The notes beneath the pieces are model-generated. The model had not been told where the DNA came from. It worked only from the letters and a program-made list of their open reading frames with translations, and did not search any database. A DNA stretch of 64,000 nt, from NCBI GenBank assembly GCA_021778845.1, contig JAJYBU010000009.1, positions 1 to 64,000 of the forward strand, read 5' to 3'. Shown piece after piece: positions 24,415 to 52,371 of the stretch (positions are counted from its first letter, which is position 1; each line of letters starts with the position of its first letter). The position numbers and the translations under genes are program-made. Origin of the DNA: Acidobacteriota bacterium. GTDB lineage: Bacteria > Acidobacteriota > Terriglobia > Terriglobales > Acidobacteriaceae.

Positions 24415-24987
24415 ATGGCTGCGACCAAGACCCCTATTGCAACCGATAGTGCCGCTGCATTGCATGGCCTGATCGGCGATGACGCTACCGCTATGTTTGA
24501 GAGCGATCTGAAGTTCATCGAGTCCAACCCCGCTGGTCGCGCCTCCAGTGAGCACATCGAGTTGCGCGATACCGACGACACCGAGGATAGCGAAGAAGAA
24601 GAGGATGAGTTCGAGGATGAAGAGGATGAGGATGAAGAGGATGAGGATGAAGAGGATGAGGATGAGGATGAAGATGAGGATGAGGATGAGGATGAGGAAT
24701 ATGGAGACGACGATGACGATGAGGATGGAGAGGGCGTACTGCGGGCGACAGGATCAACCAACGTGCGCGGGCCGGTAAAGAATGGAAAGACCGACGTGGA
24801 AGCGGAACTCGAAGACATGGAGGAAGAAGACCGCAGCGGCGCTGAGAGCATCGAGGAAGATGTGGAGGCAGGTGTAAACAGCGATGGGAGCGGGAGCGAC
24901 AATCCGCAGGTTGATCGCGCGATCGATGCGGCGCTTCGCATGAGCGCACTGACGGTGGTTGCTGCCGGATTTGCCGCGAACGCCTAG
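24415..24987 (+). CDS. Highly acidic low-complexity protein with long Asp/Glu tract
   Basis: aaggagatgaaccATG with good RBS; DDTEDSEEEEDEFEDEEDEDEEDEDEEDEDEDEDEDEDEDEEYGDDDDDEDGEG. Confidence 0.75.
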   Translation: MAATKTPIATDSAAALHGLIGDDATAMFESDLKFIESNPAGRASSEHIELRDTDDTEDSEEEEDEFEDEEDEDEEDEDEEDEDEDEDEDEDEDEEYGDDDDDEDGEGVLRATGSTNVRGPVKNGKTDVEAELEDMEEEDRSGAESIEEDVEAGVNSDGSGSDNPQVDRAIDAALRMSALTVVAAGFAANA

Positions 24988-49020: not shown

Positions 49021-49123
49021 TTAGGGTGGGCGCTTCGGACCTTGAGGGCGGGTTTGCCGTTGGCGCTTTTGGCTGTTAGTGGGTCTAGAACTGATTGCCA
49101 TCCGGTTTTGTCACCGGTTCAAG

Positions 49124-49160
49124 AAGCAGATTCCTCCGCTTCGCTACGGAATGACAACCA
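49124..49160. repeat. Dispersed repeat family D, copy D1
   Basis: aagcagattcctccgcttcgctacggaatgacaacca. Confidence 0.8.
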
Positions 49161-49378
49161 TCAAAATGGTTGCGACTACACCTGAAAGCGAACGGGTCTA
49201 GTTAAATTGTACGCACTCGGTGGGGGAGACTATGCCAACTTGCGAAATGGGAAATCGGCAGTGGGGACGCGGGGTTTGTGCGGTCTGGGGTCGCGTGGGG
49301 GGTTGACATGCGATTTTTGGGCTGTTTTCGCAGGAATTATTTTCGGGGAGGGTGGAGATCACGCCTTGTGGGCGCGGG

Positions 49379-49415
49379 AAGCAGATTCCTCCGCTGCGCT
49401 GCGGAATGACAACCA
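49379..49415. repeat. Dispersed repeat family D, copy D2, at the 3' end of egtD
   Basis: aagcagattcctccgctgcgctgcggaatgacaacca, followed by aaaaaagcaagtgcaagagc. Confidence 0.8.
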
Positions 49416-49440
49416 AAAAAGCAAGTGCAAGAGCCTAGGG

Positions 49441-50487
49441 TTAGAGGGTGTGGGCGAGGGTTAGAGCGAAGCTGCGGGTGGAGTCGTGGAAGGTGCAGGT
49501 GGGGGTGAAGCCGGAACGGGCGAGTTGGGCTTCGAGAGCCGCGTCGGTGAACTTGTAGCTGTTCTCGGTGTGGATGGTGTCGCCCTGGTCGAAGTGGATG
49601 CGGTGCCCGGCGATGTGGACCGTCTGGGGGACGAGGCTCTCGAGATGCATCTCAATGCGGCTCTCGGCGGCGTTCCAGCGGACGCGGTGGGCGAAGGCGG
49701 AGAGGCGGAAGTCGGCGTCGAGTTCGCGGTTGAGGCGGGTGAGGATGTTGAGGTTGAAGGCAGCGGTGACACCGGCGGCGTCATTGTAGGCAGCGAGGAT
49801 GGTGGAGAGGCGCTTCTGGCGGCTGGGCGCGAGGTCGGTGCCGAGGAGGAGGGCGTCGCCGGGCTGAAGGTGGGTGCGCAGGCGACGGAGAATGATGGTG
49901 GCTTCGTCGGGCGTGAAGTTGCCGATGCTGGAACCGATGTAGAGGGCGAGAATGCGGCTGCGGACGGCGGGTTGGGACGGCCTGCCCTGCGGGGAGATGG
50001 AGGGGTGGTCAAGGGTGTAGGGCTCGGTGATGTAGTTGGCGAGCTGGGGGTGGACGGTGAGGCCGGGGAGGGCGGCGGTTAGGGTGTCGGCGGCAGTGGT
50101 GAGGGCGGTGGGGCTGACGTCGATGGGCTGGTAGAGAAGCTCGGGCTGGAGGAGTGTTGCCGCGTGGAGGAGAAGGCCGGTCTTGGAGGCGGTGCCGGCG
50201 CCGAGTTCGGCGATGGTGAAGGGGTCGGGCGCGAGGAGGGGAAGGCCGCTGGGGGCGCCGGGGGTGAGGAACTGGCGGAGGATGTCGGCGGAGTGGGCGG
50301 CGAAGAGGGCGCGCTCGGTGCGGGTGAGGTAGTACTCGGGGAGGGTGGTGATCTGCTCGAAGAGAGCGGAGCCGCGCTGGTCGTAGAAGAGCCAGGGGGG
50401 GAGGGTCTTCTGAGGGTGGGCGGTGAGGCCGGCGAGAGCTTCGGTGAGGACGGCCTCGTTGGGAGAGACAGGGGTCGTGGTGGTCAA
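49441..50487 (-). CDS. egtD: L-histidine N(alpha)-methyltransferase
   Basis: PPWLFYDQRGSALFEQITTLPEYYLTRTERALFAAHS...ELGAGTASKTGLLLHA...YIGSSIGNFTPDEA; TTG start proposed, excluding the repeat-derived extension. Confidence 0.9.
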   Translation of the reverse strand: MTTTTPVSPNEAVLTEALAGLTAHPQKTLPPWLFYDQRGSALFEQITTLPEYYLTRTERALFAAHSADILRQFLTPGAPSGLPLLAPDPFTIAELGAGTASKTGLLLHAATLLQPELLYQPIDVSPTALTTAADTLTAALPGLTVHPQLANYITEPYTLDHPSISPQGRPSQPAVRSRILALYIGSSIGNFTPDEATIILRRLRTHLQPGDALLLGTDLAPSRQKRLSTILAAYNDAAGVTAAFNLNILTRLNRELDADFRLSAFAHRVRWNAAESRIEMHLESLVPQTVHIAGHRIHFDQGDTIHTENSYKFTDAALEAQLARSGFTPTCTFHDSTRSFALTLAHTL

Positions 50488-50574
50488 GGGAGGCCTCGTG
50501 GGGTGGGAGGGGGTAAAGCCCCGTGTGTAACGAGTTGAGCAGCGGAGACAGGTAAAAGCAACAGCAAAAGACAA

Positions 50575-50606
50575 AAGCAGATCCCTGCGGGATGACAACC
50601 AAAAAG
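50575..50606. repeat. Dispersed repeat family D short variant, copy D3
   Basis: aagcagatccctgcgggatgacaaccaaaaag. Confidence 0.8.
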
Positions 50607-50892
50607 CAACGGCAACGGCAAGAGCAACGGCAAGAGCAACGGCAAGAGCAACGGCAAGAGCAACGGCAACAGCAACGGCAACAGCAAAAGAAGAAGCAGA
50701 TCCCTGCGGGATGACAACCAAAAAGGCAACGGCAACGGCAACGGCAAGAGCAAGAGCAACGGCAAGAGCAAGAGCAACGGCAACGGCAACGGCAAGAGCA
50801 ACGACAACGGCAAGAGCAACGACAACGACAACGGCAACGACAACGGCAACGGCAAGAGCAACGGCAACAGCAACAGCAACGGCAATGGCAAC
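50603..50892. repeat. Hexanucleotide-period low-complexity array (ggcaac/ggcaag/agcaac units), interrupted by D4
   Basis: About 290 bp of 6-bp phased GGCAAC, GGCAAG, AGCAAC and GACAAC units, split by the D element at 50694-50726. Confidence 0.92.
50694..50726. repeat. Dispersed repeat family D short variant, copy D4
   Basis: aagcagatccctgcgggatgacaaccaaaaagg. Confidence 0.8.
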
Positions 50893-50958
50893 TACAGGGG
50901 TGCTTCGCCTTGCTCAGGAGGACGGGGCGGAGGTGGGTTGAGAGTTGGGGCGGGGCGG

Positions 50959-52371
50959 TTAGGCACCGTCGCGGGCGAGGCGGAGGCCGCTGAACTGCCA
51001 GCGGGTGGAGGGTGAGAAGAAGTTGCGGTACGTGGGACGGATGTGAAACCGCGGAGTGACGCAGGAGCCGCCACGAAGGACCATCTGGGAGCTCATGAAC
51101 TTACCGTTGTACTCGCCGAGGGCGCCGGGGAGGGGCTTGTAGCCGGGATAGCCCGTGTAGGGCGATTGGGTCCACTCCCAGACGTCGCCGAAGAGCTGCT
51201 GCGGATGCGCGAGGTCGGCGGTGGTGGAGGCGGGCTGAGGGTGGAGGTGCTGGGACTCGAACATGTTGGCGGGGCGAGGGGAGGGAGCAGACGCTGCTGC
51301 TCCGGCGGGGGATGCCAGAGCCGGAGGAGGCTGGACGGCGACGAACTCCCACTCGAACTCGGTGGGGAGGCGGTGGCCGGACCAGCGGGCGAAGGCCTCG
51401 GCCTCGAAGAAGCTGAGGTGGCAGACGGGAGTCTCGGAGAGTTCGCCGAGGGAGCGGAAGCCGTGCAGGGTGAAGATGCGCCAGCCGGAGGAGGTGGCGG
51501 AGTCGCGGACCCAGTAGAGCGGTGCCTGCCAACCTTCGGAGCGCATGGTCTCCCAGCCTTCGGAGAGCCAGAGCTCGGGACGGGAGTAGCCGTCGTCTTC
51601 GATGAAGGCGAGGTACTCGGCACAAGTGACGGCGCGGGAGGCTAGCTGGAAGGGACGAAGATAGAGGGTGTGGCGGGGGCTCTCGTTGTCGAACGCGAAG
51701 GAGTGGAGGTTGTTGGGGTCCGGGGTGTGGCCGACTTCGACGAGGCCGGGCGTGAGGGGCGAGCCGGGAGTGAAGCTGAGCCAGTGGAGCGGCGGCGCCA
51801 TGGTCTCGGATGAGCTGGGGGCGGAGGAGGATCTGGGCTCGGGGGGAGGGGGGTTCTTGTAGGCGGGGTGAAGGGGGTTGGTGAAGAAGGCGTGCTTGAT
51901 GTCGGTGGCGGCTAGCTCGAGGTGCTGCTGTTCGTGCTCGAGACCGAGGACGATCCGGCGCTGGGATTCATCCTGGGGGACGCAGCAGAGGAGCCGGGCG
52001 ATGGCCGCGTCGACGTGGCGGCGGTAGGCGAGGACCTGGTCAAGCGGCGGACGGGAGAACGAGGAGCGGAGTTTCTTCTCGGGCATGTCGCCAACAGCGC
52101 GGTAGTAGGAGTTGAAGAGCCAGCGGAAGTTGGGGTCGAAGGTCTGGTAGCCGGCGATGAACTCGGAGAGGACGAAGGTCTCGAAGAACCAGGAGGTGTG
52201 GGCGAGATGCCACTTGATGGGCGAGGCCTCGGGACAGGATTGCACCATCATGTCCTCCGGGGTGAGCGGGGTGCAGAAACGCATGGTGGCCGCACGCACG
52301 GTACGGAAGCGGTCGAGCAACGTTGCGGCGCTGGCGTGTGAGGGGGTGAGAGGTGTGGACTGAGTCAGCAT
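50959..52371 (-). CDS. egtB: Ergothioneine biosynthesis sulfoxide synthase-type protein (DinB_2 plus FGE-sulfatase domain)
   Basis: SPIKWHLAHTSWFFETFVL, GLEHEQQHLEL, HRLPTEFEWEF, GDVWEWTQSPYTGYPGY, MVLRGGSCVTPRFHIRPTYRNFF. Confidence 0.92.
   Translation of the reverse strand: MLTQSTPLTPSHASAATLLDRFRTVRAATMRFCTPLTPEDMMVQSCPEASPIKWHLAHTSWFFETFVLSEFIAGYQTFDPNFRWLFNSYYRAVGDMPEKKLRSSFSRPPLDQVLAYRRHVDAAIARLLCCVPQDESQRRIVLGLEHEQQHLELAATDIKHAFFTNPLHPAYKNPPPPEPRSSSAPSSSETMAPPLHWLSFTPGSPLTPGLVEVGHTPDPNNLHSFAFDNESPRHTLYLRPFQLASRAVTCAEYLAFIEDDGYSRPELWLSEGWETMRSEGWQAPLYWVRDSATSSGWRIFTLHGFRSLGELSETPVCHLSFFEAEAFARWSGHRLPTEFEWEFVAVQPPPALASPAGAAASAPSPRPANMFESQHLHPQPASTTADLAHPQQLFGDVWEWTQSPYTGYPGYKPLPGALGEYNGKFMSSQMVLRGGSCVTPRFHIRPTYRNFFSPSTRWQFSGLRLARDGA

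Follow-up and report, generated by a model that had tools for sequence, protein, structure and literature searches.

The egtB-egtD spacer array of a Granulicella genome as one copy of a genome-wide, REP-like mosaic repeat family

The genes egtB and egtD lie together on the minus strand of a 64,000-nucleotide stretch of DNA, hereafter the window, from a genome of the GTDB genus Granulicella (Acidobacteriota; 3.77 Mb in 79 contigs, one MAG, 89% complete). On the gene strand egtB is upstream and egtD downstream, and the spacer between them holds two copies of a small palindrome, termed D, each with an array of hexanucleotide units at its 3' side. The features of the locus, in window coordinates, are as follows.

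49124-49165, plus strand: long-form D flanked by CATCAAAATG, without a hexamer tail
49379-49430, plus strand: long-form D with a short tail (CCAAAAAAGCAAGTGCAAGAGC)
49441-50487, minus strand: egtD, L-histidine N-alpha-methyltransferase (TIGR03438 above cut-off; start taken from alignment to relatives)
approximately 50551-50570, plus strand: short hexamer-like stretch (AAAAGCAACAGCAAAAG) 5' of the first D, read from the sequence
50575-50606, plus strand: D short form, copy 1; its minus strand reads TGTC-ATCCC-GCA-GGGAT-CTGC
50605-50688, plus strand: hexamer array 1, 14 units of [AG]GCAAN
50694-50725, plus strand: D short form, copy 2, same sequence as copy 1
50725-50892, plus strand: hexamer array 2, 28 units
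about 50892-50925, plus strand: degenerate C-type palindrome (CTACAGGGGTGCTTCGCCTTGCTCAGGAGGACGG) closing array 2, assigned by eye against C-type elements at other array ends
50959-52371, minus strand: egtB (TIGR03440 above cut-off)

An earlier note had described this spacer as two near-identical D elements, each followed by an array, and both its coordinates and its description are correct: the D copies at 50575 and 50694 are identical over all 32 nt, and the hexamer runs at 50605-50688 and 50725-50892 are uninterrupted. It had also placed a D element with the tail aaaaaagcaagtgcaagagc at 49379; element and tail are present there, but the palindrome is a longer variant (GCAGATTCCTCCGCTGCGCTGCGGAATGACAAC). 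Tandem Repeats Finder reports 50606-50892 as a repeat of period 6 with 47.8 copies and a score of 215, the highest in the window, and the two spacer arrays are also its longest T-free runs, at 173 and 107 nt, followed by one of 55 nt. A 34-mer hexamer pattern matched the genome 346 times against 5 matches for a reversed control, which places it far above chance. Around window positions 49060-49205, a long-form D core is centred in a larger, MITE-like imperfect inverted repeat (AGGTGTAGTCGC ... GCGACTACACCT), which recurs in the genome (loci L005, L007, L017, L020, L021 and L025) with no hexamer tail. Elsewhere in the window, a GAGGAT/GATGAA low-complexity array at 24591-24733, perhaps an acidic coding tract, holds the longest C-free run.

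The array in the egt spacer belongs to a mosaic repeat family spread over the genome and is not a feature of the egt genes. Pattern searches located 70 D copies in the genome (41 long form, 29 short form), and an array search returned 61 matches that merged into 40 clusters. A D copy lies within 100 bp of 33 of these 40 clusters, and the array follows the orientation of D in all 33, an arrangement with a chance of about 1e-64 under a simple placement model. Element classes were assigned by patterns and by eye, and the E-values and other chance estimates likewise come from simple models. Nearly all remaining clusters border, as judged by eye, palindromes of the A type (GCAGGTTCCTCGCTGCGCTCGGAATGACAG) or C type (ATACGGAGATCCTTCGCTTCGCTCTGGATGACGG); the least clear case, cluster C76:34146, lies next to other repeats. 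Hexamer arrays at this cluster (L187) and at about 9.4 kb of contig C42 (L173) are bordered by a further repeat (GGGCTGAAGCCCCCTGCTAATCCG).

The association between D and its arrays is polar. Flanks were readable for 60 distinct D copies, and an array was counted where at least three RGCAA motifs fell within 60 nt; by this measure 13 copies carry an array solely 3' of D, no copy carries one solely 5', and the 5' side is hexamer-rich in 30. That D elements elsewhere might lack gcaac-type tails had been named in the earlier note as grounds for giving up its reading; the 3' side proved hexamer-rich in 43 of the 60, and the reading was not refuted. Next to D, the density of RGCAA reaches up to 50 times the window background. 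An isolated long-form D typically has unique DNA on its left and CCAAAAAGGCAA... on its right, and where several D copies form a cluster they are always arranged head-to-tail.

Within the arrays, neighbouring units resemble each other more than within-array shuffles allow, with z values of 9.1 at lag 1, 5.2 at lag 2 and 0.2 at lag 4. An excess at the first two lags and none at the fourth is as expected from slippage by one or two units, and it is the local duplication of neighbouring units by which slippage in bacterial VNTRs is recognised. The resemblance is graded along the array: adjacent-unit identity is 0.67 in units 1-3 past the element and 0.11-0.26 past unit 9, and the more uniform half is the proximal one in 21 arrays versus the distal one in 1 (p 1e-5). 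Related genomes display a weaker gradient, with the proximal half more uniform in 20 arrays versus 8. Anchoring on the downstream element makes the gradient disappear or tilt the opposite way (9 versus 17), which rules out an anchoring artefact. Three findings support the proposal of the earlier note that arrays extend from D's 3' tail: the adjacency of arrays to D throughout the genome, its strict polarity, and a homogeneity gradient beginning at the element.

Copies of the family also occur inside genes, in frame. In carB, 41 aa replace 3 aa of E. coli CarB when compared with the solved structure, and D plus tail gives ADSSAALRNDNQKSKGKGNGKSN. The affected loop is 55-59 aa long in 23 same-genus orthologues, 85 in the window genome and 102 in relative G019, so that array length differs between species at this site (one genome per species in the comparison), and each of the two D insertions carries its own version of the tail. 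The pair (L312, L313) occupies the same loop in two species, with an identical core and species-specific tails, and suggests independent insertion or concerted change. In rlmN, one loop carries insertions in seven Granulicella species (L342-L348), which differ in element type and frame, while most other species have no insertion there; the loop looks as if it had been repeatedly re-inserted or converted. For both genes, the in-frame placement was read from solved structures and orthologues. An amylase-like gene (L176), a hydrolase-like gene (L172) and an FtsQ-like gene (L179) have a similar look, mostly by eye. Some of the arrays lie within essential genes and leave the reading frame intact.

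The position of the spacer array between two co-directional genes of one pathway, with two weak terminator-like hairpins on the operon strand, could indicate that the array regulates the egtB-egtD operon or makes it phase-variable, and the earlier note had raised such a link to ergothioneine expression. Several lines of evidence stand against it. A like structure occurs at about 40 places in the genome, and gain or loss of a hexamer leaves the reading frame unshifted. Among relatives, 23 egtB-egtD pairs were located and 19 of their spacers read, and none of the 19 contains an expanded array. In this spacer a C-like element is present once in each of the relatives G020 (EgtD 86% identical) and G001, and single elements occur in a few others; the site has been occupied repeatedly, and the array is not conserved. 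Searches of the spacer returned no promoter and no Rfam match, its 2 terminator-like hits are at chance level (shuffled mean 1.2, sd 1.1), and the array strands show less structure than their shuffled counterparts. There is therefore no support for a conserved egt role, egt-specific regulation is rejected as the main explanation, and a regulatory element of this operon is decidedly improbable. Another idea is that the array encodes an N-terminal Ala-Val/Ala-Leu repeat of EgtD, a frame being open from 50721 across the array into egtD. T-free DNA, however, is open in all six frames through its composition alone, and most other arrays lie away from gene starts. EgtD homology (TIGR03438) begins at the usual start, which is residue 92 of the extended frame, and relatives start there as well; on these start sites the extension is rejected as hardly credible.

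Two further explanations concern the origin of the arrays themselves. They might have come first, as landing pads into which an orientation-specific, IS200/IS605-like transposase acting on single-stranded DNA inserts D. Such insertion would yield the fixed relative orientation seen in 33 of 33 clusters, the left end of D (AGCAGA) keeps the hexamer phase in several arrays, and many D copies, as counted above, have an array on the 5' side too. Insertion into existing arrays nevertheless predicts array flanks on both sides, against the 13 copies with a 3' array only, and uniformity peaks directly 3' of D. Nor are the elements in excess near Y1 transposase genes (0.063 versus 0.068 per kb), and landing pads are accordingly an unlikely origin. 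An assembly artefact, or a wrong array length in the MAG, could be suspected from the division into 79 contigs and from the array clusters C3, C5, C21 and C30 within 1 kb of contig ends. However, the same unit forms arrays in 16 of the 28 genomes compared within the genus, one of them the single-contig G002, and two cultured strains, Granulicella mallensis X5P3 and Granulicella sp. L46, contain the element-plus-array junction. An artefact is therefore very improbable, although exact array lengths in the window assembly may be off. Of 299 genomes from the class, 20 have hexamer arrays, and 17 of these 20 belong to the family of the window genome. A search across 85,462 species recovered the junction of element tail and array in 39 stretches; every one bears an Acidobacteriota title, with Granulicella, Edaphobacter and Acidobacteriaceae as the named carriers. 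In relatives the element tail with hexamers is dispersed, with 101 copies in G002 and 83 in G022.

The explanation that probably accounts best for these observations is one of palindrome blocks whose tails are lengthened by slippage beside the element, and the best reading of the whole is a REP-like mosaic family whose microsatellite tails grow in a polar way by slippage. The building block would consist of a small palindrome whose foot reads TGTC or CGTC, an A-rich linker 3' of it, and an [AG]GCAA[ACG] tail. Such blocks may transpose, dispersing between genes and, in frame, into gene loops. The tail would then lengthen as one or two units at a time are duplicated by strand slippage, mostly beside the palindrome, and proximal duplication would leave uniform units next to the element and older, scrambled units farther off. 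Duplication or re-insertion of whole blocks could generate the head-to-tail mosaics, of which the two D copies of the egt spacer are an example. The palindrome itself may provoke slippage, for example via stalled replication; stalling is uncertain because the hairpins are weak (z -1.7 to -0.3), and this holds for the folds of all element types.

The weaker gradient of other genomes counts against this explanation, and so does the composition of the unit. Arrays are built of [AG]GCAA[ACG], and interior units keep GCAA in 98-99% of cases, with A or G at position 1 and A, C or G at position 6, where T appears in 2 of 389 units, or 5 of 727 by another count. A fixed GCAA and a near-absence of T at position 6 are unlike the outcome of neutral mutation plus slippage. 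One array strand is accordingly close to T-free, and since every stop codon includes both T and A, T-free DNA is open in all six frames. Avoidance of stop codons is insufficient as the full cause of the missing T, since a T before G makes no stop and is also rare. In a relative, a long array (L201, G005:C94) is built of TGCAAG units; in that case, then, position 1 tolerates T. It is possible, though doubtful, that the tail is not passive and that its T-free unit is selected, or made by a copying mechanism, in a way that keeps six frames open. If this were true, a mobile palindrome with any length of tail could spread through coding and intergenic DNA and seed linkers in essential proteins.

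Among known repeats, the closest comparison is with the CGTC-tagged REPs (Di Nocera et al. 2013, PMC3733652), which are likewise small dispersed palindromes with several types per genome, no flanking transposase gene and some copies within genes. The unpaired foot of that class, CGTC or TGTC/CCTC, is present here, reading TGTC on the minus strand of the D and A types and CGTC in the C type, and the AT at the first two stem positions recurs in the pairs ATCCC/GGGAT, ATTCC/GGAAT and ATCC/GGAT. CGTC-tagged REPs have stems of 8-9 bp, loops of 4-5 nt and mostly head-to-head dimers, the head-to-tail order being called negligible (PMC3733652), whereas perfect stems here are about 5 bp (the short D has a 5-bp stem and a 3-nt loop), clusters are head-to-tail and the hexanucleotide tail is one-sided. 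Five phyla are listed for that class, Acidobacteriota not among them, and its mobilising enzyme is not known (PMC3733652). In the present genome a search of Y1_Tnp genes revealed no linkage of elements to its 4 Y1_Tnp loci, near which element density is that of the background, and on this ground a RAYT-driven REPtron is rejected. BIMEs and REPINs with RAYT transposases likewise form mosaic clusters of REP-like palindromes between genes, but the present family has a TGTC/CGTC and not a GTAG foot, no inverted pairs and no linked RAYT gene.

Neisserial intergenic mosaic elements (dRS3 plus RS repeats, PMC3898611) also alternate palindromes with repeat spacers; theirs are RS repeats of 30-160 bp, while the present ones are hexanucleotide microsatellites. 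Rickettsia palindromic elements (RPE) are in-frame palindromic repeats in genes that likely encode functional proteins (PMC3733652), a placement shared by the carB and rlmN copies; the present family differs in the expandable, T-free tail on many copies, and most of its arrays were seen between genes. No description of a growing hexanucleotide tail on elements of the REP, NIME or RPE type was found in the literature searched, from which subscription journals were mostly absent, and a search on palindromic or tandem repeats of Granulicella or Acidobacteria yielded no account of hexamer arrays. RepRanger (PMC12306157) covers Granulicella aggregans with counts only.

According to a 2025 survey, short tandem repeats are on average not enriched in bacterial genomes (PMC12699852), and its dozens of element-bound hexanucleotide arrays make the present lineage a useful exception to that average. 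Cultured Granulicella, whose rlmN and carB loops differ in occupancy, could serve for measuring movement, tail growth and tolerance in essential genes. In eukaryotes, the tails of retroelements seed microsatellites, a mobile core bringing a tail that acts as a seed at each new site. The replication biology differs, and the likeness is one of outcome only. REP-type palindromes and microsatellites, which are usually kept apart, are linked in this family by sequence evidence of polar seeding.
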